A DNA stretch of 64,000 bases from positions 147,887,317-147,951,316 of the forward strand of contig CM037584.1 of NCBI GenBank assembly GCA_021018995.1, given 5' to 3'. Made by a program: the position numbers and the translations under genes. The stretch comes from Chloranthus sessilifolius (taxonomy: Eukaryota > Streptophyta > Magnoliopsida > Chloranthales > Chloranthaceae). Below, piece by piece: positions 19,972 to 62,247 of this stretch. Numbering within the stretch: position 1 is the first letter of the stretch; each line of letters starts with the position of its first letter. A model generated the notes under the pieces. That model saw only the letters and a list, made by a program, of their open reading frames with translations. It was not told the DNA's origin and ran no database searches.

Positions 19972-20134
19972 GTGAAACTAATACTTGCGCCCAGGTGGCA
20001 GGGGCACGTTTTTACACTGGCGCAACTATTAGTTGCGCCAAGGTAAAAACTTGGATTTTTTAGGCTGACGCAACTATTAGTTGCGCCAGCTATATATTCC
20101 AGTTTTTTACACTTGTGTAACTAATACTTGCACC
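19972..20134. repeat. Palindrome cluster in element A leader (four units, about 47 bp apart)
   Basis: Unit centres are at about 19982, 20029, 20077 and 20124. The second (20018-20040) is a perfect palindrome: TGGCGCAACTA, one central base, then its reverse complement. The third has one mismatch. The outer two are decayed. Spacer sequences differ far more than the palindromes. Confidence 0.85.
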
Positions 20135-20644
20135 AGGCAAAAACTGATGCTCCAGAACTAATGATAGCAGCCACCAACACCTGAAATGAGTCTCTTTTTT
20201 TTATTTTTATGGAAGCTAGGCTTCCGAGAAGTGAGCTATTTTTTTGTGATCGATTCTCTCCTCACCGCACCTAAAGGGTTTGAGTCAGGTATAACTCGCT
20301 AGCGCGCTCCCCAAGGGTGTTAAGCTTCAGAATGGGAACCCACCCGATATACCTCCGGTGCAAGCACTTTCTCATATACTAGGTGGACTGGGACTTTTCT
20401 GGATCATCACCACTAGGGGCTGCCGCCATACTAAGGCTCGGGTGTTTGTGTGTTTGCCTAATTCCCACCCTTTTAACATCTATCTCGTAACAACAAATTG
20501 ATTAAGCTCCCTAACTTGGTTCAATTTTTATTAATTTTTTAAAAATCTTTTCTTCTATTTTTTGGAAGTTTTCTTTAGTTCAAAGATCGGGGGTGATGAC
20601 CCCGTGCCGCCACTACGGGCTGGCATCCACTATTGGAATATGAG

Positions 20645-20812
20645 TGCGCATGTAGGCCCGCCAATCGGCTAAGGCACTTTAAATGATGGAAATTTAAATG
20701 AAATTAAAAGTCAATGCTCAAGTAGGCCGGCCAATCGGCTAAGGCACCAAAAATGACGAAAATGTAAGAAAAAAATAAAATGCACAAGTAAGCCCGCCGA
20801 TCGGCTAAGGCA
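20645..20812 (-). repeat. Triple leader repeat beside the primer site (element A)
   Basis: Three copies of a word reading TGCCTTAGCCGATTGGCGG on the minus strand, at 20645-20676, 20716-20746 and 20781-20812, spaced about 66-70 bp. Element C has the same triple repeat at 41080-41247. Confidence 0.8.
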
Positions 20813-20940
20813 TGTAAATGACGAAAGAGTAGGGGTGAGTAAAATAAACATAAAATAAAATAAATAATAAAAAAAATAGCAAAATGGTTAGTAAAATAAA
20901 AATAAAAAGGCCAAATTTTAAGGAGAAGCTCTATAAGCTT

Positions 20941-20958
20941 TCCCTAGTAGAGTCGCCA
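20941..20958 (-). other. Primer-binding site of element A
   Basis: Minus strand TGGCGACTCTACTAGGGA, two bases inside the LTR. Element C has TGGCGACTCTGCTGGGGA at the same place. Ogre-type elements are reported to use a tRNA-Arg primer with this kind of site; the tRNA identity was not checked here. Confidence 0.65.
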
Positions 20959-21686: not shown

Positions 21687-21696
21687 CTATTTATAG
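21687..21696 (-). promoter_or_regulatory. TATA box in element A LTR
   Basis: Plus-strand ctatttatag, CTATAAATAG on the transcribed strand. Element C LTRs have a TATAAATAGAGAG box at the homologous place. Confidence 0.6.
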
Positions 21697-21977
21697 GATA
21701 TGGGTGGATTAAGAGATCACTTACGAGCTAAATGGGTTTAGCAATTAGGTAATCTCACATCTATGGATTCCTAAGGTTTTTGGAGCCTTGAGATGTGTGA
21801 GAAGGTCCTGCAATGGTGGATGATGGGGTGAGGCCTTAAGCTACTTGAAGGGTTGCAAATAGGTAGGGAATGGGTGCAACAGAACTAGCAAAACACACCC
21901 CAAAGGTCAAGGTGGTCAACAAGTCAAACCCCAATCATGATTTTCAAGGCAAAATTCAGAGGTTACTGTTTATATGT

Positions 21978-22183
21978 CTGGCGCAACTAATAGTTGCGCC
22001 AGGTAAGTATATAGTAAAACAGTTTTAAACAGTGCTTGGAAGTTGGTTTGCGAGGGTGGGCCCCACCTTTAACCTTGGCATAACTAATAGTTTCGTCAAG
22101 CTTAAAATTTGGGAGAATTGGTCTGGCGCAACTAATAGTTGCTCCAAGCAAAATTATAACTGGTGCAACTATTAGTTACGCCA
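21978..22183. repeat. Palindrome cluster in element A LTR
   Basis: 21978-22002 is a perfect 25-bp palindrome with 12-bp arms (CTGGCGCAACTA) and one central A. Further copies, each with one to several mismatches, are at about 22075-22099, 22123-22147 and 22161-22183. The cluster lies about 280-500 bp upstream of the LTR TATA box in transcript orientation. Confidence 0.85.
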
Positions 22184-22608
22184 AATCCCTAGGGGGGCCC
22201 ACATGAATTTACACTTAAGCCCTCCGGGCTTGGTTTACCGTATCTTTTGATGTATACCTCCGATTGGGGTGATTCTTAGACCGTTGGAAAGTTGACAACC
22301 TCTACTTTTCAATGGTATGAGATTCAATCATAGCAGAGGGCTGTAGCTTATTTTGTTGCACCCCTCCTCAACCATTTGCTTGATAAGGTTAGGTTTAGGT
22401 TCAGAACGGGTTCTAAGGGCCGGGATTGATTTCTAAAGGTTCAGGTCAAGTTCCTAAGGGATCTAGGGTGATTCCTAAGGGTTTGAAAAGGTTCCTAAGG
22501 GTTATAGGGGGGTTCCTAAGGGTTCAATACATGTCATCAAAAGCTCAGAATTGCACCTCTCTCGAAAGGTGCTTCGATTGGGCCTTGGGCCAAATTTGCG
22601 TGTCTACA

Positions 22609-25992: not shown

Positions 25993-27513
25993 TCAATGAC
26001 CCAACTCATGCTTCAAGGCATGGATCTCTGCACGTAAAGCATCCTCCCGTACATTCCACTCCATCATCTAGTGGCCATGAAGACTCCTTTACCACTTTCA
26101 GGAAGCATCAGTAGCACCGAGAGCATCACTCAACAACCCTTCCAAACGAAGGACCTCATGCTCAGCTACATCAGCTCTAGTTTTTGCCACCTCTGCTCTA
26201 ACCGTCTGTTTCTCTAAATTCTCATGCAGGATTCGCTTCTCGTCCATCAGTAGCTCAATATAGTTTTAAAGCATTGACTCCTTCCTCGACCAGGGCCCCC
26301 CTACATCACTGTTCTCTACCTGATCTGAGTAACAAGCGGGAGGCACCTCAGATCGTAGCCAGACCTCATACTCTAGGGAGGACAGAACCGAATTCCCCTG
26401 CTCTAATCGCACATGAGCATCGACTGACGCATCTCGCAGAGAGAAGCTATCCTATCTATGTCCCCAAAGGACTCCCGAGAGAAAATTAAGTCACACAGGG
26501 GCGGCTCTGTCACACAAAGCACCTGCTGAGGGCAACCAAATTGGCGTAACACCTGAAATGGGAAATAATAAGTGCTATCAGTCAAATCAAGGAGAGTGAT
26601 GCCCTCATGATCTCTGGCGTAAACTACTAGGAAGGTCCGATCTAACCAAGGAAGCCTCCACACCAACTTGGCTTCAACCAGCCAAAGCTTCAAACCCTGT
26701 ATGTCTCCCAGTGGAAGCATGGGGCATCTACCCAGGAAGCAGCGGGCCACCTCACCACGAGTAACGTAAAAGTGGGACACGGGTCCCAAGATGGCAAGAT
26801 GCTCCCCAAGGCAAATTTGGAGCAAGATGGGACATCCTCGAAGGCCCTCCACCTTGCCCAGGGCGAAGGCAGCGATAAAGCTCCGCTAGCATCATATGCA
26901 TCATAGAGCAGCCTCTCTCTATTTTCGCCAAGAAGTCACAAAGTGCAAGCTAGAAGCTCTCTCCCCCAGTATAGAAAAGAACCTCGGAGATAAGGCAAAG
27001 GGCAAAGGCCTTCACATTATGAGGATTTTTGATCGAAAATTTTCACAGGCTTTCCTCGCCGAAAAGTTCTCATAGGAATTTCACCGAACACTTGATGGGC
27101 CCCCCAATTAGACTTTTCTCATAATCATTTTTCTTCAAGCCTAAGGTGATCTGGGTGGCTCTGGAATAACCCAGTTTTGGTAGCACCCTGGATAGGTCTC
27201 TATGCAACTTCAAACCCGATAGATTGGAGAGCTCCTCGAGAGTAGGAGTCAATTCACAATTCCCAAAATGGAAGACATGGGTGTTAACTCCCAAAAATGA
27301 AGTCGTGGCATAAATGAAATCCCAAAGCAGAGGAACTTCAAGGAAGGACGAGAGACGGGGCAAGCCAAGCCGATCCAAACCCGCAAGCTTGCTCGCATTC
27401 ATGCTCTCAAGCCACTCCCTTAGAAAATTGGGCCCCAACCCAAAGAGGGAAGTATCGCGGTCCCAGACCCTCCACGAGAGGCGGGGCTGACAAGTGGGTC
27501 CATTAACGTACAA
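25993..27513 (-). pseudogene. Element B antisense gene 1: PMD-like protein with C-terminal coiled coil
   Basis: Minus strand, opposite to pol. N-terminal block 27513-27070 holds GLDRLGLPRLSSFLEVPLLWDFI, FHFGNCELTPTLEELSNLSGL and PKLGYSRATQITLGLKK; the 'T.TF.F..CE.TPTLEE...L.GL' pattern is that of the plant mobile domain (PMD). Second block 26852-26403 has LGEHLAILGPVSHFY, DLTDSTYYFPFQVLRQFG and DIDRIASLCEMRQS. The end (about 26290-25993) is a coiled coil (ENLEKQTVRAEVAKTRADVAEHEVL) ending LRAEIHALKH...stop. All blocks match C-element gene 1 (53293-54771). Stops are present near 27070, 26880 and 26100. Function unknown; PMD proteins of hosts (MAIN/MAIL) act in silencing and development. Confidence 0.7.
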
Positions 27514-27668
27514 AGATGCTCCAAAGATACAAATTCAATGTAGGACAATGGACCCACCCTTGAGAAAGCAAGGAGAAAATCAGCAGCAAAAAGTACCAAG
27601 CCAAAATCAAAAGAAGGTGTAAAGAGTGCATTCTCAGGCTTAAAAGGCCCCACTTTTCCCAGGTTTGT

Positions 27669-27742
27669 CTTAGCGCATGTATTACATGCGCCAAGCCTTT
27701 TGTTTCCCAGGATATGCCTGGTGCATGTAATACATGCGCCAG
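27669..27742. repeat. Palindrome pair upstream of element B antisense gene 1
   Basis: 27669-27695 and 27718-27742, 49 bp apart. Arms read CTTRGCGCATGTA and CTGGYGCATGTA, each with one mismatch between arms and one central base. Same plan as the element A and C palindromes but with the inner word ATGTA. Lies about 160 bp upstream of the antisense gene. Confidence 0.85.
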
Positions 27743-30187: not shown

Positions 30188-30202
30188 CTATTTTCCATTA
30201 AG

Positions 30203-39335: not shown

Positions 39336-39717
39336 TGTAGACACCCAAATTCTGCCCAAGGCCCGATCGGTCTGTACTCCAAAAGAAATGCACCCCCGTG
39401 CTTCCAATGGCACCCCTGAAACCTTGAGAATTTATCTAGACCTTTAGGGATCACCTAAAACCCATTAGAGGCATTCCCCCAATCCTTAGAGATCACCCCT
39501 AAACCCCAGGATCCCTTCCCAGACTCAACTTAAATCCTTTTGAGCATTTGATGGGAGGAGAGCTATACATTTTTATACAAACTACTACTAAGGATAAACC
39601 ATATACCATTGGAAATAGAACTTCTCTAGCTTTTCAATGAGCCAAAGATCACCCAATTTGGAGTTGTGGTTCAAAAGTTATGGCCGTTTGAAGTTTACAT
39701 AAAATCATGACTTTTTG

Positions 39718-39943
39718 GTCAGGCATATGTATCACATACGCCCAACAAATTTGGCCCCAGTTTGGTCGGGCGTATGTATTATATACACCTGGCATTTTTG
39801 GGCCAAATTTGGTCGGGCGTATATAATACATACGCCCAGCATAGGAAGGCCCACCACGGGCACCTGTCTTCTTAGATTCCCCCTGGTTTTAATGAAGATT
39901 ACTGTGCATAAAACTGGGCGTATATAATATATACGCCCAGTTT
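39718..39943. repeat. Palindrome cluster in element C 5' LTR
   Basis: Three units at 39719, 39765 and 39812 (46-47 bp apart) and a fourth at 39911-39943. The fourth is a perfect 33-bp palindrome: AAACTGGGCGTATATA, one central A, then its reverse complement. The others carry a few mismatches. Cluster ends about 270 bp before the TATA box. Confidence 0.9.
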
Positions 39944-40213
39944 AGCTACAATATCTATCATTAAATGCTCGAATTTCCTCCTCTGGTTTGACTCTTTGAC
40001 CATCCCCTTGGTTGAGGTGGGTGTCTTAAGGTTGGTTGCACCCCCTTTGAGCTTGTTGGCAACCCTTAAGTCACCCATGGTCTCACCCCATCATCCGCCA
40101 TTGCAACCAATTTCCTAAACCCCTAGGACCCTAAAAACCTAGAAAACCTTAGATGGAGGATTACCTAATTGCTAAACCAATTACCTCTTAAGTAACCCTC
40201 TAACCCACCTCTT

Positions 40214-40228
40214 CTCTATAAATAGAGA
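40214..40228 (+). promoter_or_regulatory. TATA box of element C 5' LTR
   Basis: TCTATAAATAGAGAG, also present in the 3' LTR at about 61525-61539. A C-rich/GA-rich leader follows, as usual for plant LTR start regions. Confidence 0.7.
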
Positions 40229-40938
40229 GCCCCCCTCTTCCCCAAAGGGTTGAAAAATTAAGATTGAAGTTAAGCTTAAGAGAGAGAGCCCTAGTGAGAG
40301 GAAAAAATATATATTTTGCAACCAGAATTCCAGCATGCTTAGTTCATCCTTTTCAACCCTTTTCAACCATTAGATCACCCCTTGTTAGTCAAGCTTAGTC
40401 CCTAGCTTCATCCCACACTTCCTATCTACCGAATCCTAGCATTAGAACCTATTCCTCTACCATTTAAGCCATTTAAAGCCGTCAGAAGCACGCTGAAGCG
40501 AAGGTCTTCTACAGTGCAACAAGGGTCCGTGAGCTCCGGCTCACCCGTCTCTTCCTCTACCTTCATGGTGATTCCTCTGTCCAAGGATTCAAGTCGTTAC
40601 GCCACCAAAATTTCAGTTTGGCTCAAAACTTGATAGGACCGTATTGCCTTTAGGCAAGGGGAAGCTCTGCCCATTTATTTTTATTTTTGGCCATAGATAA
40701 AGACCACTACATGCGGGTTGATCGGGTGCCTAAACCCTTCCCGATCGATAATCGAAGCCCCTACCCTAGAGCCTTTGGCAAAGACTAGTGAATCAGAGTT
40801 ATATTTAGCACTTCGGTGCTCAAAATATTGATTTGAAGGTTTCCCGGGTCACCAAAAGCTCCGGGTGGCGACTCTACATTTTATTCCATTGCGAGTGCAT
40901 CGCCGCGACAGGTTCGAGAGGATCCATGCTCACACAGA

Positions 40939-41757: not shown

Positions 41758-41928
41758 CTGCCAGGCATATATAATATATACGCCCAGCCAAAAATTCCCA
41801 GAAATACTCAGGCGTATATAATATATACGCTCAACCAAAATCCCCAGATTTAAGTCAGGCGTATATGATATATATGCCCAGCCAAATCTACTAAGTTTTG
41901 GTCATGCGTATATAATACATACGCTCAG
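41758..41928. repeat. Palindrome cluster in element C leader (four units, 47 bp apart)
   Basis: Units at 41761, 41808, 41855 and 41902, each close to CAGGCGTATATA, one central base and the reverse complement. Intervening 20-24-bp spacers are much less conserved than the palindromes. Confidence 0.9.
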
Positions 41929-44240: not shown

Positions 44241-45556
44241 GGGAGGCAATCCCAGCTATAACCTCGAAAAAATCAGAGCAATTGGAAGAACAGATACACA
44301 TAATACAAAAGCAGCTGACGAAGATGGGAGGAGTAGAACTGCATTCGACGAACTTTTCAGGCTTATGTCTATTCTCGGATGTCCCCCTGCCACCAAAATT
44401 TAAGATGCCATCATTCGATAAATATAATGGCACTAGCAACTCCATCACCCACTTAAAATCTTACTGTGGGGATATGTGCTAGTACGGTGGAGATGAACGG
44501 CTCCTCATCAAAGTGTTCCAAAAGAGTCTAACGGACCCGACACTAAGATGGTTCACATCCCTAGAGCCATTCATGACCAAAACTTGGAAAGATCTGACAC
44601 ACTTATTCCAAGAACAATATGTCAATAACATGGACATAGAGCCAAGGAAGTCGGATCTGGCCCGTTTAAAGCAAAGACATGATAAAACTTTCAGTGCCTA
44701 CTTAGGGAGGTGGAGGGCATTGGCCGCTCAGGTGACCCACCGGATTCTGGATGATGAGCAGATTGAATTAATAACCAAGGGAGCACTCCCAGTCATCGCA
44801 GAATTTTTGGTATATCAGCAGCAGTCCAGTTTTGCTGATTTGGTCCGAAATGCCAACCATTGTGAAGACGCCGTTAGAGAGGACAGATTGGGAAAGAGTA
44901 TGGCCAACGGGGCCGTTGGAGTTCGGAAAGCTGCCAAACCAAGGGTTGAAAGAAGGCTAGGGGTAGAGGTGCAGAACATTGTTTATCCCTAGGCCAATGC
45001 CACCCTGATATAGCTCCAGGCCGCACACCCACCCCCGACCCATTTCAAACAAGCGCCAAGGCCGAACAATGGACCGATGGCCCCGTTCACCTAGGAATAA
45101 ATGAAAGCACGATTCAAACGGGTCTTCACGCCGTTAGGGCAATCATTAAGCGTCTTGTTGCCAGTATTGCTACAAAAGGGTCTGGTCAATTTACTCCAGC
45201 CTCGCCCACCCCCCAATCTGATACCAAGAAACTATGATCCGAACCTGCATTGTAACTTCCACCAGGGACTAGGTCACCCTACGAATCAGTGCTTCCTACT
45301 AAAGCACGCAATCCAAGATCTAATAGAGGCGGGAAAAATTATTCCCTCGTCGCTTCCTCAAGGGCAGAACCAGAATATCCATCAGGCCCCTCTGCCACCG
45401 CATCCAGGAGGCCCCAGGCCTAACATCCACTGCGTAGAAGAGGAAGAGGAAGAGTTTGACCCCTCGGATTACATCAGTAATCAAGAAGAGTTTTCATTTA
45501 CCAGGTTGAACGAGGGTGAACCAATTGTAAGGGTAATCAAGCCATTTGTATTTTAG
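44241..45556 (+). pseudogene. Element C gag core and zinc knuckle
   Basis: Gag core: PKFKMPSFDKYNGTSNSITH, then after a stop (TAG at 44483, in place of the Gln seen in A) FQKSLTDPTLRWFTSLEP, WKDLTHLFQEQY, RKSDLARLKQRHDKTFSAYL and NANHCEDAVREDR (to 44992). Knuckle at about 45245-45300: CNFHQGLGHPTNQC, the Tat-type C-x2-H-x4-GH-x4-C variant. Acidic EEEEEEFDPSDYIS follows. Ends near 45556 with a stop. Role: particle formation and RNA binding. Confidence 0.78.
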
Positions 45557-48240: not shown

Positions 48241-49211
48241 GGCCCTACCCCGACGTCGAAGAGACAGAGGATGTCAATTTGAGCACCGAAGAGGTCCCTA
48301 GAATCACCAAAATCGGAACATCGCTGTCCCCTGCGGAGAGAAAAGGTATGATAGACTTCCTCCGGTCATACCAAGACGTCTTCGCATGGTTGTATGAAAA
48401 CATGCCTAGTTTGGATACCGATCTGGTTGAACATGAGTTGCCACTCTACCCTGATTGCAAGCCGGTTAAACGGAAGTTGAGACGTCTCTGACCTGAATGG
48501 ATGTTGAAAGTCAAGGACGAGGTCATTAAGCAGTATGACGCGGGTTTCCTCATGGTATCCAAGTACTAGCAATGGCTGGCCAATATCGTCCCCGTGATAA
48601 AGAAGGATGGAAAGGTTCGAATGTGCATTGAATTCTGAAATCTCAACAAGGCAAGCCCTAAGGATGACTTCCCATTACCCCACATCGATATCTTGGTCGA
48701 TAACACTACTAAGCACGGGATGCTTTCTTTCATGGACGGGTTCTCAGGCTACAATCAGATTAAGATGGCAGAGGCCGACCGAGAGAAGACCGCGTTCATC
48801 ACTCCCTGGGGAACCTTCTGCTATAAGGTGATGCCATTCGGGCTTAAGAACGCTGGGGCAACCTACCAGAGAGCAATGGCGACCCTATTCCATGACATGA
48901 TGCACTGGGAGATCAAAGTGTATGTCGATGATTTGATTGCCAAATCGTCGGAAAGGGACGACCACTTGGTAAACCTTCAGAAGCTGTTCAAGAGGTTGAG
49001 AAAGTACAAGCTGCGATTGAATCCCCAGAAGTGCACATTCGGCGCTATGTCAAGAAAATTATTAGGTTTTATCGTCAGTAGGAGAGGCATCGAGGTCGAT
49101 CCAACCAAGATCAAGGCCATCACTGAAATGCCGCCACCGTCCATAGGAAAAGAGGTCAGAGGCTTTTTAGGTAGAATCTAGTACATCAGTCGATTCATCA
49201 CACAGTTAACT
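48241..49211 (+). pseudogene. Element C reverse transcriptase
   Basis: VNLSTEEVPRITKIG, RSYQDVFAWLYENMPSLD, then RT proper: WLANIVPVIKKDGKVRMC, HGMLSFMDGFSGYNQIKMA, FCYKVMPFGLKNAGATYQRA, KVYVDDLIAKS (catalytic YVDD intact), LRLNPQKCTFG, SRRGIEVDPTKIKAI. Single stops at about 48489, 48568, 48637 and 49180. Several stops are one transition from Gln, Arg or Trp codons. Would copy element RNA into DNA. Confidence 0.85.
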
Positions 49212-49661
49212 TTGATATGCGCACCGATTTTCAAAATACTAAGAAAGGATTCACCAGTTGAGTGGAATGATGACTGCCAAGCTGCATTTGATAAGATCAA
49301 GGGTTACCTCCTAAATCCCCCAGTATTGGTACCACCTGTACCTAGTAGACCCCTCATAATGTACCTATCCATGACAGAGTTTTCCATGGGCTGTGTGTTA
49401 GGGCAACACGATGAGACAGGAAGAAGAGAGCAGGCCATCTACTACCTGAGCAAGAAGTTTACTGATTATGAGATGCGCTACTCTCATATGGAGAAGGCAT
49501 GCCTAGCGCTCGTGTGGGCTACTCAAAGACTTCGACACTACCTGCTATCCCAAGCCGTTCTACTTCTAGCACGGATGGATCCGTTGAAGTACCTGTTCGA
49601 GAAACCTTCTCTCACTGGCCGAACTGCATGATGGCAGCTTTTATTATCTGAATTCGACATC
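49212..49661 (+). pseudogene. Element C RNase H (retroviral type)
   Basis: ICAPIFKILRKDSPVEWNDD, MTEFSMGCVLGQHDETGRRE, QAIYYLSKKFTDYEMRYSHM, EKACLALVWATQRLRHYL. The usual first Asp of the active site lies in a D-A-S/S-x type word that here reads MTEFS; other positions are family-like. Ends at a TGA stop (49632). Confidence 0.75.
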
Positions 49662-50230
49662 ATGTACGTTACTCAAAAATCGATCAAGGGGCAGGCACTC
49701 GCCGATCATCTTGCTGAGAACCCTTTGCCTGACTATGAGCCTTTAAGAACCAAATTCCCAGATGAAGACATCTTGTTCATGACAGAAGATGATACAGAAG
49801 AAGCAGAAGAATCATGGGTAATGCACTTTGACGGGGCATCGCATGTCGAAGGCCAAGGAGTTGGTGCCATCCTGATTTCACCAAAAGGTTCCCATGTACC
49901 GATCTCTATCAAGCTCAACTTCCCTTGCACTAATAATATGGCTGAGTACGAAGCTTGCACCACTGGTCTGCAGGTGGCTCTTGATCTGAATGTAACTCAC
50001 CTTCGAGTATTTGGTGATTCACAGTTAATCATATGCCAAACGAATGGTGACTAGAAGATGAAAGATGAGAAACTGATCTCCTATCATGAACACCTCGAGG
50101 ATCTAATAGCTTGTTCCCAAGATGTAACTTTCTCATACATCCCCCGGATAAGGAATCGCTTTGCCGACTCATTAGCAACTTTGGCGTCAATGATTGAAAT
50201 CCTCTATGGTGTTGAGATAAAGCCGATCAT
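49662..50230 (+). pseudogene. Element C second RNase H (archaeal type)
   Basis: After a linker with IKGQALADHLAENPLPDYEP, the domain reads WVMHFDGASHVEGQGVGAIL, NNMAEYEACTTGLQVALDL, LRVFGDSQLIICQTNGD, giving the D, E, D positions, then one stop (50053) and IRNRFADSLATLASM. A second RNase H between RNase H and integrase is diagnostic of the Tat lineage. Confidence 0.85.
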
Positions 50231-51554
50231 GATCAAGCAGAGGAATGAGCCGGCCTTCTGCCTCCAGATTGAGGAACCTACAAAGCCTGAAGATGAGCCA
50301 CCTTGGTTCTCAGATATCAAGAATTTACTCAAGACCCTAACTTTCCCAAAGGGTACATCCAAGACAAACCGACGAACCATTCAACGTTTAGCGACAGGTT
50401 ACGTCATTTGCGGTGAATGCCTCTACAAGCGATCATACAATAACATCTTACTCAGGTGCCTCACTAAAACTGAAGCAGTTAGTATTATGAAAGAAATCCA
50501 TGAGGGGGTATGCGGAGCCCATGTCAACGGTCACATGCTCGCTAAGAAAATCCTACGGCAGGGATACTTTTGGACCACCATGGAATCGGATTGTTGCAAA
50601 CATGTTCAAAAATGCTACAAGTGTCAGGAACACTCCACTCTGATACACGCTCCTGCCATTGATCTTCACTGCATGACCACTCCTTGGCCATTTGCTAGTT
50701 GGGGCCTTGACATTGTCAAAATGATTAATCTAAAAGTATCAAACGAACATCGATTCATCCTCGTCGTCATTGAATACTTCACCAAGTGGGTAGAAGCGGC
50801 GTCATATGCCAACATCACGGCCAGTCACATAGAGAAGTTTCTTAAAAACAATATTGTGTGCCGATTCGAAGTACTCAAAGATATCATCACAGACAATGGC
50901 AGAAACTTTGCGAATAAGCACATCCAAGACTTCTGTGAGTAATACAAGATCAAGCACCATCACTCGTCCCCTTATCGACCTCAAATTAATGGAGCCGTGG
51001 AAGCCGCGAATAAGATAGTCGTCTGCATCCTTGAGAAAATGGTCGTCACTTATCGAGATTAGAGCGAAATGCTGCCATTTGCTTTGTGGGCCTACCGAAC
51101 GTCAATCTGTACTGCTACAGGGGCAACACCATTCTCCCTTGTATATGGAACTGAGGCCATCCTACCAGTAGAGGTTGAATTACCGTCACTTCGAATCCTC
51201 ATGGAATCAGGCTTACCCGAAACAGAAAGAGAGAGATCACGCTTTGATCAGCTAAACTTATTGGACGAGAAGAGACTCCTAGCCTTGTGTCACACTCAGG
51301 TTTACCAGGGGAGAATCGCACGTGCTTACAATAAACGTGTCCGCGGTCAAGATCTAAAGGTAGGAGACACCGTGTTAAAGAAGATCTTCCCATCCCTCCA
51401 TGTCGATCCAAGAGGAAAGTTTAAGCCGAACTGGGAAGGACCGTATGTTATTTGAGAAGTGCTGCCGGGATACGCCATCCGCCTCGCCACCATGGACGGA
51501 GATCATCTTCCTGAGCCCATCAACGCTGGATACGTCCGACGGTTCTACTCATAG
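50231..51554 (+). pseudogene. Element C integrase
   Basis: HHCC zinc finger (HEGVCGAHVNGHM, CCKHVQKCYKCQ), catalytic core (WGLDIVKMI, DIITDNGRNFANK, NGAVEAANKIV for the D, D, E positions), then [36 protein letters not shown] and INAGYVRRFYS to the stop at 51552-51554. Stops at about 50940, 51059 and 51453. An open block of 294 codons (50058-50942) is the best preserved. Inserts cDNA into the genome. Confidence 0.85.
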
Positions 51555-52335: not shown

Positions 52336-52632
52336 ATGACAGGCATGGCGGATCTGTTCTGGCTCACCTATTTTAGTCTGGACCCCTCGAGCCCCTTTCC
52401 CCTTACTTTGTCAGGCCGCTCATGTTAAAATTAGATCAGATCCTAATCAAGTATGTCGTCCCTACCGCGTCGTTTGACACATGACCAAAGGTAAGGCCAA
52501 AAGATCAATCAATCTCGGGGAAGCTGACCTATCCACATTTAAAAAGAAGCGCCGAAAACTCCTAAACGGGGTTCGACCATGCTCAAAAGGAGGACCCACT
52601 GGTTGGCCTTGAAAATACCGACATCACAAAAT

Positions 52633-52990
52633 GGAGAAAATTTCAAAAAAGATAATGGATTTTCCTGGAGAAAATTTCAAAAAAGATAATGGATTTTCCT
52701 TTCCCATAAAAAGCCTCACACTGTGTGGGAGAAAATTTCAAAAAAGATAATGAATTTTCCTTTCCCATAAAAAGCCTCACACTGTGAGGGAAAAAATTTC
52801 AAAAAAAGATAATGGATTTTCCTTTCCCATAAAAAGCCTCACACTGTGTGGGAGAAATTTTCAAAAAAGATAATGGATCTTCCTTTCCCATAAAAAGCCT
52901 CACACTGTGAGGGAGAAAATTTTAAAAAAGATAATATATTTTCCTTCCCCATAAAAAGCCTCACCCTGTGCAGGAGAAAAACTCGAACAA
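52633..52990 (+). repeat. 61-bp tandem array in element C 3' region
   Basis: About six units of GGAGAAAATTTCAAAAAAGA + TAATGGATTTTCCTTTCCC + a CACACTGTG-ending tail; the first unit is short (about 33 bp). Copies are highly similar to each other. Element B has only diverged single units at the same place, so the array was amplified in C's lineage. Confidence 0.9.
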
Positions 52991-53292
52991 AAAGATAATA
53001 GATTTACCTTTTTTATAAGAAAAACCTTACATTGCGAGACGTATGGAAGAAAACTCGAACACCAAAAAATATGTATATGTGTATATAGCAGATTTCATTT
53101 CTTTTCTTACAAGCATCACGTATGAAGTGTCACGTCCCAAAAAGATAACAACATGAGACACTTTCTACTTTTTGCCTTCTGTACAAGTATAAAACAAATA
53201 AAAAAGAAACAACCCCAAAAAGGAAGGAGATCTCTGTTAAGGGGCATCAGCCCCCCTCTGTGTATATGTTCTATGGTATGTGCAGGAACAGG

Positions 53293-54771
53293 TCAGGGGC
53301 AGGAACCACGCTTCAAGGCACTGATCTCTGCGAGAAGAGAGTCCTCACAGGCATTTCGATCGATCAACCACCTACCATGAAGACTCTTCTGCCACCTCCC
53401 TGAAGCGTCAGCTGCACTGCGAGACTCTGTCAAAAGCCCAATCAATCGAAGAACCTCATTCTCAGCCGTGGAAGCTCTTACCTCCGCCATCTCGGCTCTA
53501 GCCCTCTCCTTCCCCAAAGCCTTAGTCAAAGCCAGCTTCTCTACAGAAAGAGACTCAATTCTAGTCTCGAGCATCATTTCCTTGTATGGCCAGGGTCTCG
53601 TCTCTATCGCATCTACCGAAACTAGGTTAGGGGCAGGTAAGCTCTCAAATGCCAGCCAAACCTCATAATCAAAAGAGAGGATGCCCCCTGAACCAAGCTA
53701 CACATGTGCACCGATTGGCGGGTCTCCCAGAGGGCTGCTATGCGATCTAGGTCACTAAGAGAACCCCGAGAGAATATCAGGGAACACAAGGGCGGTCTCA
53801 CAGTACACATTCACGTGTTGGGTGTATCCGAATTGACGAAGCACCCGAGATGGGAAATAGTAGGTACTACCAGTCAACCCCAAAAGCATGATGCCCTCAC
53901 AATCTCGAGAGCGGACAATCGGAAAGGTGGATCAACTCAGATCGATAGCCATAGTTCTTCGATGCTCCCATGGGGCAGCCTCAAGCAGCGTGTCAGAAAG
54001 CCCCGAGCCACATCCCCTCTTACCAAGTAGAATCTCGGCACAGGCCCCATGATAGCCAAATGCTCTCCTAGCCAAATCTGAATGAGGAGTGGACTCCTGC
54101 GAAGAATCCCAACCCGGCCCGAGGCCGAGGCATCTAGGCCCCGATACATCTCAGTCAAGACTAGGTGTACCAGTGAACGGCCTCCCTCTAATTCGATCAA
54201 GACATCGCATAACCCGAGGGAAAATGCCTCGCCCCCAGTAAAGATGAGAACTTTCGATAACAAATAAAGGGAAAAGGCCTTCACATTAAAAGGATCCCAG
54301 ACCGACAACTTTCTGAGACTCAAGTCGCCAAAAAGTTCTCTCAGGAATTTCACCGAGAACCTAGTGGGCCCGCTGGTGAAGCTTTTCTCATACCCACCCT
54401 TTTTCAAACCAAGAATCGCGTAGACCACCTTTGCATACCCTAGTTTGGGCACCACTTTGGCAAGCCCCTGATGCATCCTCAATCCGGTAATAGAGGCTAG
54501 CTCCTCCAAGGTTGGGGTGAGCTCCCTGGACCCAAATCTGAAGACATGGGCCCTATGGTCCCATGATGCCAAGGCCGCCTGTAGGAGGTCGGGCAACAAA
54601 GGGACAGCAAGGAGAGAGGAAAGGTGGGATAACCCGAGGCGATCCAGAATAGCGAGCTCGCCCTCAGCCAAGCAGTGCACCACTTTTACAAAAAACTAGG
54701 CCCCGGGTCCAAACTGGGAAGTACACTAACCCCATCCCCCGTATGAGAATTTGGGCCGGGAAGCGATCCAT
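53293..54771 (-). pseudogene. Element C antisense gene 1: PMD-like protein with C-terminal coiled coil
   Basis: Candidate start ATG 54771, aligned with the ATG of element B (both MD-). Largest open block 54683-53937: AILDRLGLSHLSSLLAVPLL, HVFRFGSRELTPTLEELASI (PMD-type motif), PKLGYAKVVYAILGLKKGGY, LVHLVLTEMYRGLDASASG, LGEHLAIMGPVPRFYLVRGD. After a small deletion and frame change (53930) it continues with STYYFPSRVLRQFGY and DLDRIAALWETRQSVHMC, then the coiled-coil end 53577-53293 (EKLALTKALGKERARAEMAE, SLLAEISALK). Also a stop near 54695. Opposite strand to pol. Matches element B gene 1 throughout. Whether introns exist (for example around 53830) is unresolved. Confidence 0.7.
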
Positions 54772-54954: not shown

Positions 54955-55112
54955 CAGGGCGTATATATTATAAACACGAAAAAAGTCAAAACATTATGGT
55001 TATATATATATATATCGCCTGGTAAAAACAGCACCTCGCTGCATATATATTATATACGCCCAGGCAAATTTTCAAAAATATTTGCCTGGCGTATGTAATA
55101 TATACGCCCACT
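54955..55112. repeat. Palindrome cluster upstream of antisense gene 1
   Basis: Units at about 54955-54978 (decayed), 55036-55063 and 55085-55112; the last two are 49 bp apart. Same word as in the C LTR (GGCGTATRTA, centre, mirror). About 185-340 bp upstream of the gene's start codon, in the homologous place to 27669-27742 in element B. Confidence 0.85.
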
Positions 55113-55520: not shown

Positions 55521-57885
55521 CTAATCCTGGGTAGCCCCCTTTGACTTCTTTCGGCGTCAGGTTGCGCTTTGAAAGGTACGGGTCTCCCCCACCCGAGTCC
55601 ACGCCTGAGAGATGTGGCCAAGCAGAGAGCGCGACTCCTTGTCACGAGCATGCTGCATAAGCACACAAAGGGCCATAAGTTAGGGAAACAAGCAGAAAGT
55701 AAATATGAGGATGACTAGATGTGGTCAATATTCACTCACCACCTCAACCTCTCTAAGACCGGAAATGTTACGGTAATATTCGGCTTGGTTTACGGCCGAC
55801 TCATAATCCTGCAGTAAAAAGATAAAGAGAGACGTATCAGTCACACAGGCCATCGGCATAATCCAAGGAAACAGAAGAGCAAGGTAACAAGGGAGAGATT
55901 ACCCCAGGGATTAGCTTAGGGGGTGGAATTCGGATAGCTTTAGCAAATATGCATGCCTTCTCAGCCACATCGGCACACATACGTGACAGAAAGGCATCAT
56001 CCAAGCGCTTAAAGGTCCCCTGGACCTTAGTTGGTGAACTGTCGGAAGCACCAGCACCGGAAGGGTCGGAAGGTCCCGCACCAGTAGCCTCACCAGGAAC
56101 AGCTGCCTCATCCCCCTCATCTGAATCATCATCCTGTCCAAACTATAGAGAGAAATAGTCTTCGTTCAAATAGCAGGGCAATTAAGGTAATCATATGGAA
56201 GGCTGCTAGTAGAAAGAGAAAAGAACATTACCTGAGATCGCAGACCACCAAAAGCAAAAAAGTTGGCGCCAGAATCGGGGCAGCAAGGAACGATAGGGCA
56301 GAGACTCATACCACATCTGATATCCCCCAGGAAAGAGAAGGTCATCAATGGGGACCCCGTGGTGGAGAAAGCGAGAAGTAAGCATTTTGGTAGAACCCTC
56401 GAGAGCCAATACATCGGCTGGAGGAGCTTGGGGCACAGCAAAAAGAGGTCGATATTGATGAATCACCCTCTCTCCTAAGTAATAGGCCCTAGCCCAGGAC
56501 CCATAAAAGAAAATATTGCACCGATCTAACAAAAGGCAAGAAGGGCCCACTGCAGCCAGGTTTCGGAAGGGGGATCTGACGTAGGGATCAAGGATGACCT
56601 GCTCAACAAAAAGGAGTAGGGATTTATACATTTGGTCAGAACCCGCAGCATAAAAGAGCTATCAAATTTGCAAAGAGAGAAATTGTTATACTTGTTCAAG
56701 GATCAGCAGATCAAACTGAGAGTGCAGCCCTAGCTCCAAGTGCTTCATACCTACGTCCCGACGGCGGTTTGCATGCCAATTGCTCATAAGGGGGAACGTG
56801 GGAACTTCAGAGAGAAGCAGTGGGCGACCAGGTTGGAAATGCAGATACCCCCACACCTGAGAAAGCAAGCAGATAAAAACAGATATGCCAAAAAAAAAAG
56901 GGGAGGACGAATTGAGACCAAAGGATAAAATACCTCAAGTGCAGGCCAGAAGCCCACAATGGAGTTGGAGTCTCCAAGAACCGCTCACACCAGGCTAGAC
57001 ATGAGCACCACATAACTAGCACCTCCCCAATCGAACCGATGTACAGTGTCCTAGTTCACCATAAGAGTGAGTAGGGACAATGAGACCCGCCCTCCGCTGG
57101 TGTTTGAAAGGAGAGTCTTGTCGAGGAGGAACAGCAGAGAAATGCGGGCCAACATCAGTGCACGCTCTGGCTCGAGATAGATGGCCGCATAAGGTTGGCC
57201 CAGATCCACTAACTCATGAGGCTCGAATAAGCCAACTAGCCAGGATAGCTTGACTTCAGAACCGCAAACGTTCTCGGAGGTTGGGTAGGCCCCTTTCAGT
57301 CGAATCACCTCCTCCCTATCAGGCGTACGGACAGGTATCACTGGCACCCCTCCAATGTGAACCCCGGTAATCATAGACCAGTCTGCGGGCGTAAGGGTCA
57401 TCTCAGCCATGGCCATGTGAAATGTCATGGTCTCGGGGCGGAAGCGTTCTATCAAGGTCTTCAGATAGGCCGTGTCAGCCCTCACAGTGGGGCATGAAAT
57501 GAAGTCCCCAAAACCAGCTTGGGCGAGCAGGTCCTTCACCACCTGGGGGAGATAAAGTATGAGGCACTGGAGGTCGAACCAGCCACCCCGGAACATGATG
57601 TGTGGTAGCGGCTGCAAACAAAGGCATCGGTCAAATAAGAGCAAAGTGGTATAATGAAGGCATCAAAGGAAAAGAAGAAAAGGAGGCTCATCTGTTTACC
57701 TGACCAGCGATCCCAAAGTTGGAAATATGGGTATGCTGACAATAAAGAAGGTCAGTGCGGGCGGCTTCACCTTGCATTTCGTACCAAGGTTGGGAGGAGT
57801 GCTATGAAACAATGAACTGTTCCCCGTGAGGACCATAGGCCATCTCGGGCCCCTCCTGTGGACCCTGGCCTTCGTCGCCGGACAT
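55521..57885 (-). pseudogene. Element C antisense gene 2: seven-exon PMD-domain gene
   Basis: Exons inferred on the minus strand: 57885-57700, 57611-56934, 56856-56692, 56598-56232, 56142-55903, 55808-55740, 55652-55521. All six introns are GT-AG and 77-94 bp long; every junction is phase 0. Start MSGDEGQGPQEG. Exons 2-4 carry the plant mobile domain: AQAGFGDFISCPTVRADTAY, LIERFRPETMTFHMAMAEMT, LTPADWSMITGVHIGG, FDWGGASYVVL, VWGYLHFQPGRPLL, SWARAYYLGERV. Exon 5 is acidic then basic (FGQDDDSDEGDEAA); exon 7 ends in a Lys/Arg tail. Damage: stops at about 57815, 57048 and 56983, one extra base in exon 4 (367 nt), and a TGA at 55557 twelve codons before the conserved end. Antisense placement would let introns survive retrotransposition. 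Function unknown. Confidence 0.75.
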
Positions 57886-58618
57886 CTGAAAATATGGAAC
57901 ACATCGGTGTAAGAAAGGGCTGCTAAAAGAAAAAAGAAAAGAAAAGAGAATAACAAAAAAAAATGCACTGATCCATCAAAAAAAAAAAGGATGAATAAAG
58001 AATGAATGGTGATAGATAATGAGAAAAATGAAAAAAGAGAGGGGAGCATAGAAATAAGGAATCACATATACCTGAAGAAAAAAATGCACTACAAAAAAGA
58101 AGAACATCAAGCATTTCAAATCCAAAAAAAAAAAAAAAAAAAAAAGAGAAGGAGAAAAGTAACAAAAATATAAAAAAATATATATAATAATATATGTGCA
58201 CTAATCCATCATAAAAAAAAAAAACAAAAAACAAAACAAAAATAATAAACAGATAAGAACCAAGATGATGATGGATGATGGATGATGAACGGTGATGATA
58301 CATACAATCATAACTGATGAGATAATAAAAAAAAATAAAAAAACAAACAAAACAAAAAAAAAAACAACAAAACACAATCAAAATTCAAAGGAAAAATCAA
58401 TGATTACCTTCAATGGGAGGGAAATAGATCCAAAATCGGCGGAGAATAAACGTCTTTTGATCCACACTCACAACTCCCGGTAATAGAACTCAAGAAAAAT
58501 AAAATGCCAAAACCCTAAGGGGCTATCCCGGACTTGAGAAAGGAGGGAAGAGGATAGAGTTTGAAAGAGGGGGTCCCTTTTGTGCTCGGGCTCGGGCAGT
58601 TTTAAAACTGCCAATTTT
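57886..58618 (+). other. Upstream region of antisense gene 2, low complexity
   Basis: 57930-58380 is dominated by A-runs (for example 58118-58142) with TA and GATGAT stretches. Long Phe-rich minus-strand ORFs here are composition artefacts. No gene. On the minus strand it would be the gene's 5' leader and promoter. Confidence 0.5.
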
Positions 58619-58697
58619 GGTCAGGCGTATATAATATATACGCCCGACCATTTTTTCGTGCAGATTGGCTGGGCGTATATACTATATACACCCGACC
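58619..58697. repeat. Palindrome pair upstream of antisense gene 2
   Basis: 58619-58648 (GGTCAGGCGTATATA, centre, near-mirror) and 58668-58697, 49 bp apart. Same word as in the C LTR and leader. Confidence 0.88.
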
Positions 58698-60655
58698 AAA
58701 ATCGGCAGTTTAAAAATTGCCCGGCCATTTTTTTGGCTTTGAGGCCCGACGGACCCCCTTGTATGCTACGGACCAAGGTCTGGTCCCTTTTAGAAGCCCA
58801 CGTACCATCAAGCGATGGTGCACGCATCCCCAAACGGCCCTTCGAACTCTCTTCGATTGGCCTAAAGGGACCGTGCTACAATAAACGGATCTAGATCTGT
58901 AAGCACCCGCTGAGTGCCCCATAAAATCATAAAATCAAAAAAAGGGAGAAAAAGAAAATGTTGAAAAATGACACTAGTTCCTAAGGGAGCGTCGCAACGA
59001 CTGTTTGCCCCCTTCCAAGAGCCGTGTTAAATCAATTCGGAATGATCGGGTTCACCCGAAAGTTCTCAAACCCTGTTTTACACAAGGACACCTCATACCT
59101 GATCCGGCAGGCAAATGAACTCCTCCATCACCGGTCGTTCCTAGGAACATACACCTAGCCCAAGATCTTCCCTAGCAAACATCAAGACCTGATCCAGCAG
59201 GCAAACCAAGGACCTATCAGCGGAATGTGCACGTCCTTAAGGTGTATCAACATGGTAAGTTGATTCACCTAAGGATACGTGCAGAAAAAAAAGCAGTTTG
59301 AGCATGCTCAAAGTCTCGAATTGACATGTAAGAAGAGAAAGAAGAAAAAAGAAAAAGGAAAGAAGAGAGGAAATAACAACCTTTGGTTATGAAGTAAAAA
59401 TCCTGATTAGGTTGACCCCACCTTCCAAGCGTTAGCTCTGATCATCCACCTTCGGATCTAGGTTGACCAAGAGTATACCCGACTTCAGACCATTCGAAAA
59501 GTTTATTGTCAGTCAAAACTGACCCGTCAAAAATGAAATTACAACCAACCAAACTATGTGTAAGCATACAGACCAAAGGGCTCATTCCCTTTTACTTCCT
59601 TTTACACAGGCTTAAAACCTGTATAGGCACGGGGTCCCTGTTGAATTACGCACTTGCGTCTGGGTATCCGTAGGATGGTCGTTTGTCCTTGTAAATTGTA
59701 CCTTAGGGTCGAGGCTTCCATTCGCACCTATTTGTTGTTTATCGCCCCTGATGGGTGTCTGTCTGCGCATAGTTAGTAAGATGTGATTTCATTAGGACGA
59801 AGGCTAGAATTGACCATCTCTTTCGATGGATGTTTGGTTCTAGCCCGATCCTTTTTAGCTTTGTCTCAAGTTAAGGCACTCCAGTTTATGCGAATCAGGA
59901 GCACCTCGCCACTGGAACGAGCACATCCCCAAGGTGCACCTATCCTCGACAGAGAGCACGCATTCTTAAAGCGTGTCAACTGACATTTGATCCACTTAAA
60001 GAGTTGTGCAAGAATAAAATTTCTAGAGGTCCTTGAGCTTTGCTTAGAGGCCTCAAAATAAAAGAAAATTAAAAAAAAAACACACAAAAAATTACTCTAA
60101 AAATGGGCATGCATTCCCAAGAAGTGTCGCGACATCAATATTCGCTCCACTCAGGTAAATCATGCTAAAGCAACCTCGAGGTTGATGGGTTCGCCCAAAA
60201 GACTCCGAGCCTTACCTAGGTAAGGGCACCCGTGGCCAATCCAATGGAACAGTCAAGATCCCATAGGATTGGACACAAGTTTGTAGGCCTTCACTTTGTG
60301 TGCTTCGCATCAATTCCGAAGCATAGATCGATCACCCCATTTCATGGAGCTGTCTGGTTCAGATTAATACCCAACATCACAAATCTATAATTTCCCTCAG
60401 GAAGTGGATGATATCCCGGCTAGTAGGCTTACACTTTTTATGATCATCGCAATTATGCCCAGTAATGTTGCAATGCGCTTGGAGACTGTTAGCTTTGAGG
60501 TACGGATGATATCCCGAAATGAGAGGGCTTATGTACACTCACCATCACCATGACTGTTGGAGAATTGAGTTGAACCATGTAGACCCATCAAACATGCCTT
60601 GGACCTCTTAGGATGTCTCTTATCTTTGGCATCCGATCATTAGTGATCGAATACC
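58698..60655 (+). other. Element C 3' terminal untranslated region
   Basis: About 2 kb without a supportable gene. Two copies of a CCTGATCC(A/G)GCAGGCAAA word lie near 59099 and 59189; two GGATGATATCCCG words near 60407 and 60505. Otherwise nothing recognised. Confidence 0.45.
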
Positions 60656-60668
60656 AAAGAGGGGCATA
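60656..60668 (+). other. Polypurine tract of element C
   Basis: AAAGAGGGGCA followed by two bases and the LTR start TGTAGACACC. Normal plus-strand priming site. Confidence 0.7.
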
Positions 60669-62247
60669 TGTAGACACCCAAATTTGGCCCAAGGCCCGAT
60701 CTCTGTACTCCAAGAGAAATGAACTCCCGTGCTTCCGATGGTACCCCTGAACCCTTAAGAATCTATCCAAACCTTTAGGGATCACCTAAAACCCATTAGA
60801 GTCATTCCCCCAACCCTTAGAGATCACCCCTATACCCCAGGATCCCTTCCCAGACTCAACTTAAACCCTTCTGAGCATTTGATGGGAGGAGAGCTATATA
60901 TTTTTGTACAGACCACTGTTGAGGATGACCCATATATCATTGGAAAGAGGACTTCTTCAGCTTTCCAATGAGCTAAATATCACCCAATTTAGAGTTGTGG
61001 TTCAAACGTTATGGCCGTTTGAAGTTTCACATAAAATCATGACTTTTTGCTCAGGCGTATGTATTACATACGACAAAGATTTATTTGGTCCGTATGTATT
61101 ATATCGCTGGCATTTTAGAAATTTGGTCGGCTATAATACATACGCCCAGCATAGGAAGGCCCACCATGGGCACCTGTCTTCTCAGATTCCCCCTGGTTTT
61201 AATGAAGATTACTGTGCATAAACTGGGCGTATGTAATATATACGCCCAGCTTAGCTACAGTATCTGTCATTAAATACTCGAATTTCCTCCATCTGGTTTG
61301 ACCCTTTGACCATCCCCTTGGTTGAGGTGGGTGCCTTAAGGTTGGTTGCACCCCCTTTGAGCTTGTTGGAAACCCTTAAGTCACCCATGGTCTCACCCCA
61401 TCATCCGCCATTAAAACCAATTTCCCAAACCCCTAGGACCCTAAAAACCTAGAAAACCTTAGATGGAGGATTACCAAATTGCTATACTAATTAGCTCTTA
61501 AGTAACCCTCTAACCCACCTCTTCTCTATAAATAGAGAGCTCCCCCTCTTCCCCAAAGGGTTGAAAAATTAAGATTGAAGTTAAGCTTAAGAGAGAGAGC
61601 CCTAGTGAGAGGAAAAAATATATATTTTGGAACCAGAATTCCAGCATGCCTAGTTCATCCTTTTCAACCCTTTTCAACAATTAGATCACCCCTTGTTAGT
61701 CAAGATTAGTCCCTAGCTTCATCCCACACTTCCTATCTACCGAATCCTAGCATTAGAACATATTCCTCTACCGTTTAAGCCATTTAAAGCCGTCGGAAGC
61801 ACGCCGAAGCGAAGGTCTTCTACGGTGCAACAAGGGCCCATGAGCACCGGCTCACCCCTCTCTTCCTCTACCTTCTTGGTGATTCCTCCGTCCAAGGATT
61901 CAAGCCGTTACGCTGTCGAAATTTCGGTTTGGCTCAAAGCTTGATAGGACCGTATTGCCTTCGGGCAAGGGGAAGCTCCGCCCATTTATTTTTATTTTTG
62001 GCCATAGATAGAGACCGCTACATGCGGGTTGATCGGGTGCCTAAACCCTTCCCGATCGATAACCGAAGCCCCTGCCCTAGAGCCTTTGGCAAAGACCGGT
62101 GAATCAGAGTCATATTTAACACTTCGGTGCTCAAAATATTGATTTATTGGTTTCCCGGGTCACCAAAAGCTCCGAGTGGCGACTCTATATTTTATTCCAT
62201 CGCGAGTGCATCGCCGAGACGGGTTCGAGAGGATCCATGCTCGCATA
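60669..62247 (+). repeat. Element C 3' LTR
   Basis: 1,579-bp copy of 39336-40936 with scattered substitutions and small deletions; two of its four palindromes (about 61088-61149) are shortened by deletions. TATA box at about 61525-61539. Ends ...GCTCGCATA, so the terminal CA has become TA. Confidence 0.93.

Follow-up and report, generated by a model that had tools for sequence, protein, structure and literature searches.

Palindromic sites in Tat/Ogre-type LTR retrotransposons of Chloranthus sessilifolius: candidate operators of an antisense PMD protein

A 64,000-nucleotide stretch of contig CM037584.1 of Chloranthus sessilifolius, here called the window, holds three LTR retrotransposons (elements A, B and C) that carry short palindromes in several copies. 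What are these palindromes, and does a protein of the elements themselves read them? An earlier sequence-only reading proposed that each family has its own word built on one shared plan. We describe the sites in the window and in the genome, and we consider that they may be operators to which a symmetric dimer binds. The likeliest binder would be the plant mobile domain (PMD) protein encoded antisense in the elements, which would make a self-recognition circuit. We give this reading a probability of about 0.5.

Palindromes and genes of the three elements

Palindromes with a one-base centre were present in elements A, B and C where the sequence-only reading had placed them (Table 1). A 19-bp core, GCGYANNTAWTANNTRCGC, occurred 24 times in the window with at most two mismatches, always within the palindrome clusters; when the window was shuffled 100 times with dinucleotides preserved, the average was 0.11. 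A looser half-site filter gave 29 places, 25 in clusters and 4 elsewhere, and ten first-order Markov controls gave 4 to 11 places each. Inner TA and outer CTGG had both been described as shared by the families. The TA was indeed common, but the CTGG was not strictly so, and in element C the left arms mostly have TCAGG or TCGGG and the right arms CTGGG. The common part of the sites in the window is GGCG....TA flanking a centre that is A or T, except at 58682, where it is C. No left arm in the window has the exact 12-bp sequence assigned to B, CTGGCGCATGTA; both palindromes of B are symmetric at 11 of 12 pairs. Clusters in LTR, leader and upstream of antisense genes were found together in element C only, as A has them in LTR and leader, its LTR being recognised by similarity to C, and B has them in one antisense promoter region.

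Table 1. Features of elements A, B and C (positions in the window)
Feature	Position	Strand	Remarks
Up to four A-word palindromes, leader of A	19969..20136	-	steps 48, 48, 47 bp; centres 20029, 20077, 20124 and a weak one near 19981
Four A-word palindromes, LTR of A	21978..22184	-	steps 97, 48, 37 bp; centres 21990, 22087, 22135, 22172
Antisense gene 1 of B, two open pieces, DUF7745/PMD-like	26403..27534	-	Pfam weak; 50% identical to C gene 1
Two B-word palindromes	27670..27742	+	48 bp step; about 140 bp upstream of open piece of B antisense gene; centres 27682, 27730
5' LTR of C	39336..40937	+	self-BLAST; 91.6% identical to 3' LTR; ends approximate
Four palindromes, 5' LTR of C	39719..39940	+	steps 47, 47, 101 bp; centres 39732, 39779, 39826, 39927
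Putative primer site TGGCGACTCTGCTGGGGA of C	about 40939		just after 5' LTR
Four palindromes, leader of C	41761..41928	+	centre-to-centre 47 bp; centres 41774, 41821, 41868, 41915
gag of C	44483..44992	+	Pfam Retrotrans_gag 4.4e-14
RT, RNase H and second RNase H (RVT_3) of C	48639..50054	+	
Integrase region of C	50055..50942	+	
Antisense gene 1 of C, further open piece	53293..53697	-	coiled-coil-like by eye
Antisense gene 1 of C, open piece, PMD/DUF7745-like	53937..54695	-	PMD 2.8e-7, below Pfam cut-off
Three palindromes of C	54955..55111	+	about 260 bp and more upstream of gene 1 open piece; steps 82, 48 bp; centres 54968, 55050, 55098
Antisense gene 2 of C, open piece, PMD	57051..57662	-	E 1e-15
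TTTTAAAA box, putative core promoter	58595..58612	.	within short palindrome adjoining gene-2 sites
Two palindromes of C	58621..58695	+	48 bp step; about 960 bp upstream of gene 2's open PMD piece; centres 58634, 58682
3' LTR of C	60669..62248	+	self-BLAST
3' LTR palindromes of C, partly decayed	61051..61249	+	centres 61064, 61136, 61236

The primer site of element C presumably matches tRNA-Arg. The polyprotein of C contains a second RNase H (RVT_3, 6.8e-9, 36.1 bits against a cut-off of 21.6) at 49632-50054, after RT_RNaseH; relatives of its integrase were not found in viral_contigs. The second RNase H (aRH) defines the Tat clade of Ty3/gypsy according to the accessible text of PMC6317226. Element C also has a PMD extra ORF, an Ogre feature, in antisense gene 2, and a PMD match below the Pfam cut-off in antisense gene 1. 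The same source reports PMD in 57% of Ogre elements, so it is common rather than strictly defining, and a primer site complementary to tRNA-Arg is given for Ogre in the accessible part of PMC9289625.

Half-site words, arms and spacing

The palindromes occur throughout the genome in Tat/Ogre-type LTR retrotransposons. A loose core search of the genome gave 48,037 sites compared with 154 for the reversed pattern. Exact sites with the YR word, GGCGYRTRTA, in both arms numbered 19,484 (one reversed-pattern match), and sites with the A-family word, GGCGCAACTA, in both arms numbered 12,638 (none for the reversed pattern). Mixed A/YR sites numbered only 1,744, whereas 16,241 would be expected with independent arms, a 9-fold lack. 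Equal palindrome density in control sequence had been named as grounds for giving up the proposal; an excess was found in the window and in the genome alike. The paired-site pattern had 0 matches in viral_contigs and 0 in genome_contigs.

The idea of family-specific words held in part. The A word is a clear switch, but the words of B and C and those newly found are variants of GGCGYRTRTA, and 103 of 112 half-sites at 18 loci (17 of 20 flank loci plus B of the window, without L024; L031, L043 and L047 omitted as decayed) are of YRTR type. Strict family-specific words for B, D and E were rejected, since 7399 of 20000 label shuffles reached the observed value. In five elements of types D, B and E, similarity between clusters was no higher within an element than between elements, for sites symmetric in 7 or more of their 12 pairs. 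The four clusters of C, and likewise the two of A, mostly use one word in each element. Clear family specificity is limited to A and C.

Covariation of the two arms across families, on which the proposal had been staked, came out in its favour. Among the YR sites listed (50 of 19,484), found by a pattern that did not require equal arms, 40 had identical arm words compared with 16.6 in shuffles (maximum 29); with one of these sites per 20 kb, the count was 16 of 20 compared with 4.5 (maximum 13). For 50 sites listed from the loose-core search, mostly A-word, it was 25 compared with 18.0 (shuffle maximum 26), which is not decisive alone. At 22 loci flanking gene 1, where slots were picked independently of the word, 25 of 62 pairs had identical words and 245 of 310 letters were the same, whereas shuffling between loci gave 10.6 (maximum 25) and 192.7 (maximum 223). 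Shuffling within loci gave 22.7 identical words, the observed 25 being reached by 1454 of 10000 shuffles, and the observed value by letters was reached by 373 of 10000. Slight extra pairing of a site's own arms may exist. The arms match mainly because one half-site word is used throughout a locus. Of the two possibilities that had been offered side by side, this makes a dimeric DNA-binding protein more likely than an RNA hairpin.

Adjacent sites were 46-48 bp apart in 35 of 38 cases, with slots picked by symmetry. Several clusters were scored as tandem repeats with a period of 47. The array spacers are related to each other (0.63-0.69 compared with a baseline of 0.34), so the 47-bp step may stem from tandem duplication. 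Transitions and transversions stood at 162:40 in palindrome columns and at 418:316 elsewhere (18 loci), and transitions in the flank-locus alignment showed little strand bias (G/A 196, C/T 177). Helical phasing was considered, since about one turn separates a spacing of 37 bp from one of 47/48 bp; it is not claimed, because 37 bp occurs only with the A word and spacings of 42, 59, 69, 72, 77, 82 and 83 bp also occur.

Antisense PMD genes and the proposed circuit

In YR-word elements, the palindromes are linked to PMD-like genes: a gene-1 match adjoins the palindrome flank in 20 of 21 loci. In gene 2 of both C and D, the arrays are followed at a short distance downstream by a TTTTAA box and then CCCGAG. 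TTTTAA was in the search key for the gene-1 loci, which leaves the CCGAG after it as the sole independent part there, and the TTTTAA...CCCGAG stretch is absent from gene 1 of C in the sequence examined. Palindrome clusters were not found in the examined stretch of three of seven 3' regions (L068, L070, L071). One A-word element, read from pol to the 3' LTR, has palindromes and no detectable PMD gene. It would need a protein from elsewhere, and self-recognition in cis does not fit that copy. Searches of the proteins of genes 1 and 2 gave no relatives at the thresholds used, and among solved structures a single match turned up, at chance level (E 0.57). The further open piece of C gene 1 matched no Pfam family at 0.001, and the predicted structure of a gene-1 piece was uninformative (mean pLDDT 49).

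We propose that a DNA-binding protein acting as a symmetric dimer would bind the palindromes, whose 10-bp half-sites lie on both sides of the central A or T. Such operators, mostly 47-48 bp apart, would mark LTR, leader and the regions upstream of the antisense genes. The product of the antisense PMD genes, probably the binder, would find copies of its own clade and would control both the LTR and the genes that encode it; it may also relieve silencing by the host. To our knowledge, PMD is not an established DNA-binding domain, and this counts against the operator reading. A broader version, which is less likely, is that Ogre-type PMD proteins encoded antisense to pol are sequence-specific dimeric regulators of a clade-wide operator, serving self-recognition and counter-silencing; elements without PMD, such as the A-word one, would use this protein or would have switched word to follow another.

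The elements might instead have hijacked sites that serve a transcription factor or PMD complex of the host, with the antisense genes merely under its control. This would suit the A-word element that keeps palindromes without a detectable PMD gene and the one degenerate half-site common to most families seen. It also agrees with the link between host PMD proteins and the promoter motif DOWN in the available text of PMC7156037 and PMC9899485. However, a fixed protein would not be expected to follow the switch between A and YR words, whose hybrids are so rare, and DOWN as printed in that text, CATGCAGTTT of the MORC1 promoter, is unlike these half-sites. We regard a host factor as unlikely, though a serious alternative. 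Mutational upkeep, in which a 47-bp unit multiplies by tandem duplication and template switching mends imperfect palindromes, so that symmetry arises without selection, draws on the interrelated spacers and repeat-like clusters. Direct duplication, however, cannot transfer a left-arm word to the right arm. One word mostly prevails in the four clusters of C and one in the two of A, transversions are proportionally far fewer in palindrome columns, and the 3' LTR sites of C decayed without repair. Its chance is small.

A smaller chance still is given to RNA hairpins in element transcripts, acting in packaging, stability or translation control. Copies in the leader, the 3' LTR and possibly the antisense 5' UTR can be transcribed, and inverted repeats fold in RNA. 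Against this, a left arm fits the right arm of the next slot (0.78) almost as well as the right arm of its own palindrome (0.81; 40 comparisons), and among the letters that vary least is the innermost TA at the one-base centre, bases that would be loop in a hairpin (sites were partly chosen by TA). On the gag-sense strand, mismatches were A.C in 80 cases and G.T in 38, to which CATG/TGTG hybrids of one orientation contribute much; wobble pairing on the antisense strand, which the counts first suggested, was set aside for this reason. Finally, alternating pyrimidine-purine tracts could act by shape, as Z-DNA or cruciform, with no sequence-specific protein. The YRTR words do alternate, but A-word sites (CAAC) break the alternation and are still present in thousands, which makes this highly improbable.

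Related systems and implications

VANDALs are MULE DNA transposons, unlike the LTR retrotransposon element C. As in the VANC/VANDAL system of Arabidopsis, tandem short non-coding motifs that diverge between related families accompany an extra protein encoded by the element, according to the available text of PMC5735166; here, family-specific motifs clustered in non-coding parts are clear only for A and C. The VANC motifs (YAGTATTAY, AGTTGTCC, AGTTGTAC) are not called palindromes in that text, and 'palindrom' is absent from the paper's main text. Binding was demonstrated for VANC, whereas the sites described here are known from sequence and the PMD protein is a candidate partner. Similarly, Retand has antisense ORFs proposed as DNA-binding regulators and tandem arrays near the 3' LTR in the available portion of PMC11963269, whose main text has 'palindrom' only within a reference. 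The Retand marker TRP28 (PF04195) had no match in the scanned antisense pieces of B and C. With the Ogre/Tat elements of PMC6317226 and PMC9289625, element C shares the second RNase H, the long LTR and the PMD extra ORFs, but a palindromic operator array is not mentioned in the accessible sections of these papers. MAIN/MAIL1 are host PMD proteins that the available text of PMC7156037 and PMC9899485 links to a promoter motif, DOWN, and to the silencing of transposons; direct binding is unproven there too. A description of such palindromic sites was not found in searches of open-access papers.

The accessible text of PMC8616336 calls PMD a domain of unknown function, although it is present in many Ogre elements and in silencing genes of the host. 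Operator sites in the tens of thousands, some of which adjoin PMD-like genes, would offer a direct candidate DNA target for PMD. If the operator reading is true, VANC-like self-recognition would extend from DNA transposons to LTR retrotransposons. The A and YR words, with rare hybrids as possible intermediates, would then be a natural experiment in the joint change of a protein and its binding word, and the plant mobile domain would gain a biochemical function.

Palindrome clusters and their carrier elements

The palindromes that the sequence-only reading had placed along the window, each consisting of two half-sites around one central base, were borne out at their positions. The 19-bp core GCGYANNTAWTANNTRCGC (at most 2 mismatches) occurs 24 times, always inside clusters of A, B and C, the Tat/Ogre-type LTR retrotransposons of the window, compared with a mean of 0.11 and a largest count of 2 in 100 dinucleotide-preserving shuffles of the window. 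A looser filter gave 29 places, 25 of them within clusters; the ten Markov controls gave 4 to 11 each. The exact arms quoted before are scarcer than was implied: perfect A and C palindromes were each found once, and the B left arm is nowhere intact.

C encodes gag, RT, RNase H, a second RNase H and integrase, together with two antisense genes matching the plant mobile domain (PMD), the gene 1 match being under the Pfam cut-off. Its second RNase H makes C a Tat-clade element under the definition given in the consulted portion of PMC6317226, which also reports PMD in 57% of Ogre elements. Clusters had been proposed in LTR, leader and upstream of antisense genes. C has all three: both LTRs, the leader (~0.8-1.0 kb past the 5' LTR), and sites ~260 bp upstream of the gene 1 open piece and ~960 bp upstream of the gene 2 open PMD piece, distances being measured from the open pieces. 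A (minus strand) shows LTR and leader clusters at places corresponding to those of C, and B (plus strand) has one cluster, situated upstream of its antisense gene 1 at ~140 bp from the open piece; that gene and gene 1 of C share 50% identity. Palindromes in the 3' LTR of C have decayed, which fits selection on the mobile lineage alone.

C itself appears to be an insertion within a pol region, and a second, inverted copy of that region lies at 33-36 kb with RT, integrase and SH3_Tf2-1. The element nested inside A, which we take to be Athila-like, has pieces matching Transposase_32 (below cut-off), aspartyl protease and RT RNase H, and its LTRs bear another short palindrome, GTGAAAAATGGTATTTTTCAC. 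Each arm of a separate inverted repeat, perhaps a long-TIR or foldback element, holds arrays of AATCGATT-type short palindromes.

Features located in the window
Feature	Position	Strand	Remark
Nested element inside A	3734-18035		12.5 kb; LTRs 94% identical
snoR71 (C/D-box snoRNA), Rfam match	15448-15553		E 4.9e-9; within nested element span
Inverted repeat	28335-32063		arms 1.6 kb, 84% identical
Pol-region pieces around C	33080-35756, 38458-39336, 62245-64000		
LTRs of C	39336-40937, 60669-62248	+	91.6% identity between them
Tandem array, 61-bp unit	52632-53038		between pol and antisense gene 1 of C
GGCAGTTTTAAAACTGCC	58595-58612		beside gene-2 sites
Integrase zinc-binding domain	62103-62747		in pol region around C

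Genome-wide occurrence and spacing

In the 2.17-Gb source genome, the 25-bp A palindrome (at most 2 mismatches) matches the forward strand 24,772 times and the reverse strand 24,724 times (control 0), and GCGNNNNTAWTANNNNCGC has 48,037 sites against 154 with the reversed pattern. Both arms carry YR words (YRTR) at 19,484 sites (control 1), the A word CAAC at 12,638 (control 0) and the B word CATG at 922 (control 0); words and spacings at this scale come from samples among the matches listed. Sites on the plan occur in 3 of 20 evenly placed 10-kb regions (L020, L022, L024), where a loose filter gave 18 places, 11 on plan by eye and 7 off. Two of the 20 regions share an identical 21-bp palindrome, AATCCTAATTGAATTAGGATT (L009 6661, L012 2265), perhaps another dispersed repeat. 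Pattern search of viral_contigs and genome_contigs found no two such sites 18-28 bases apart.

The flank GGGCTTAAAAGGCCCCAC, close to gene 1, was used as a search key that left the palindromes out of the query. With at most 1 mismatch it gave 243 forward and 223 reverse genome matches (control 0), and 20 loci were fetched from the 100 exact matches listed. At 18 of these (not at L031 and L047), palindromes reach 9 or more of 12 pairs. Their centres group at distances of 46-48, 92-95, 138-142, 186-189 and 234 bases, counted from the flank, with a few others (70, 75, 129). Neighbouring centres are spaced by 46 (n=3), 47 (n=20) or 48 (n=12) bases, and by 23, 24 and 83 once each. Of 21 loci (19 fetched, L024 and B of the window), 20 have a gene-1 match adjoining the flank, L061 being the exception.

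Half-site words and arm agreement

At a set of 18 gene-1 loci (17 of those fetched by the flank plus B of the window), 103 of 112 half-sites read YRTR (CATG 40, TGTG 39, TGTA 17) and none CAAC, and transitions to transversions are 162:40 in palindrome columns versus 418:316 in the remaining columns. Therefore, the B and C words and two further ones, D and E, are one degenerate half-site, GGCGYRTRTA, and the A word (GGCGCAACTA) is the clear switch. Family-specific words, as originally claimed, hold for A and C but not for the others: 0 of 20000 label shuffles reach the observed word sharing among clusters of one element (19 clusters, 7 elements), whereas 7399 of 20000 do once A and C are removed (13 clusters).

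The predicted covariation of arms across families was recovered. Among 62 slots picked without regard to word (22 loci), 25 have the same 5-base word on both arms (between-locus shuffles 10.6, max 25), and 245 of 310 letters agree versus 192.7 shuffled (max 223). The YR/YR pattern required YRTR on each arm and not equality; 40 of the 50 sites listed have equal arms (shuffles 16.6, max 29), as do 16 of 20 after thinning to one per 20 kb (4.5 shuffled, max 13). A/YR hybrids number 1,744 (838 + 906) against 16,241 expected with independent arms. A/CATG accounts for 1,527 of them, compared with an expectation of 2,994 for these two words alone, and most of those listed have the same base at the centre when read from the A arm, as a single lineage would give. 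Of 50 listed GCGNNNNTAWTANNNNCGC matches, mostly A-word sites, only 25 have equal arms (shuffles 18.0, max 26). One result speaks against strict pairing of each arm with its own partner: within-locus shuffles average 22.7 against 25 observed, and the observed agreement is reached by 1454 of 10000 shuffles when scored by words and by 373 of 10000 when scored by letters. Since within-locus shuffling almost reproduces the observed identity, the arm match stems mainly from one word used by all half-sites of a locus. This would be expected of a protein reading one half-site twice, and RNA pairing would predict it less. At C1:35533408-35549839, listed sites mix A/CATG and A/TGTG half-sites with spacing as within one element, one mixed site lying ~4 kb ahead of the last cluster; this is a possible intermediate stage of the word switch.

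Promoter context and candidate binding protein

On the antisense strand, GTGGGGCCTTTTAAGCCCGAGAATGCA or a near form stands shortly after the array in the gene-1 loci inspected, where TTTTAA is part of the search key and its presence not independent. Located without the key, TTTTAAA...CCCGAG lies shortly past the array at gene 2 in both C and element D (L024), and in the stretch inspected near the array at gene 1 of C no TTTTAA...CCCGAG was found. We read TTTTAA as a putative TATA-like box, and the arrays would then be putative promoter-proximal operators. GGCAGTTTTAAAACTGCC and CATGCAGTTT, the host DOWN motif that the published text consulted links to MAIN/MAIL1, have GCAGTTT in common; this covers seven bases only and may be chance agreement.

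We infer, with good support, that a dimeric DNA-binding protein would act on the palindromes. The antisense PMD protein is the best single candidate for this putative binder, because its genes lie in the same elements, with the sites in the same upstream regions, in a layout that would be autoregulatory. Several gene-1 pieces farther along look coiled-coil-like by eye, a feature that would fit dimer formation. PMC8616336 suggests counter-silencing by TE-encoded PMD, the consulted part naming no DNA target alongside. No description of palindrome sites of this kind was found among titles and abstract openings of the open-access PMC papers that literature searches listed. The main rival is that a host factor binds the sites. 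One A-word element, at C1:2727001-2736000, is 86% identical to C in RT and 77% in integrase. Over most of its pol-3'LTR part (probably excepting a few hundred bases ahead of the LTR), it showed no palindrome, and no gene-1 or gene-2 match save one weak one (E 0.003) within the gag-pol part. If this element is general, A elements would need the protein from elsewhere, or the binder would be other than the PMD protein.
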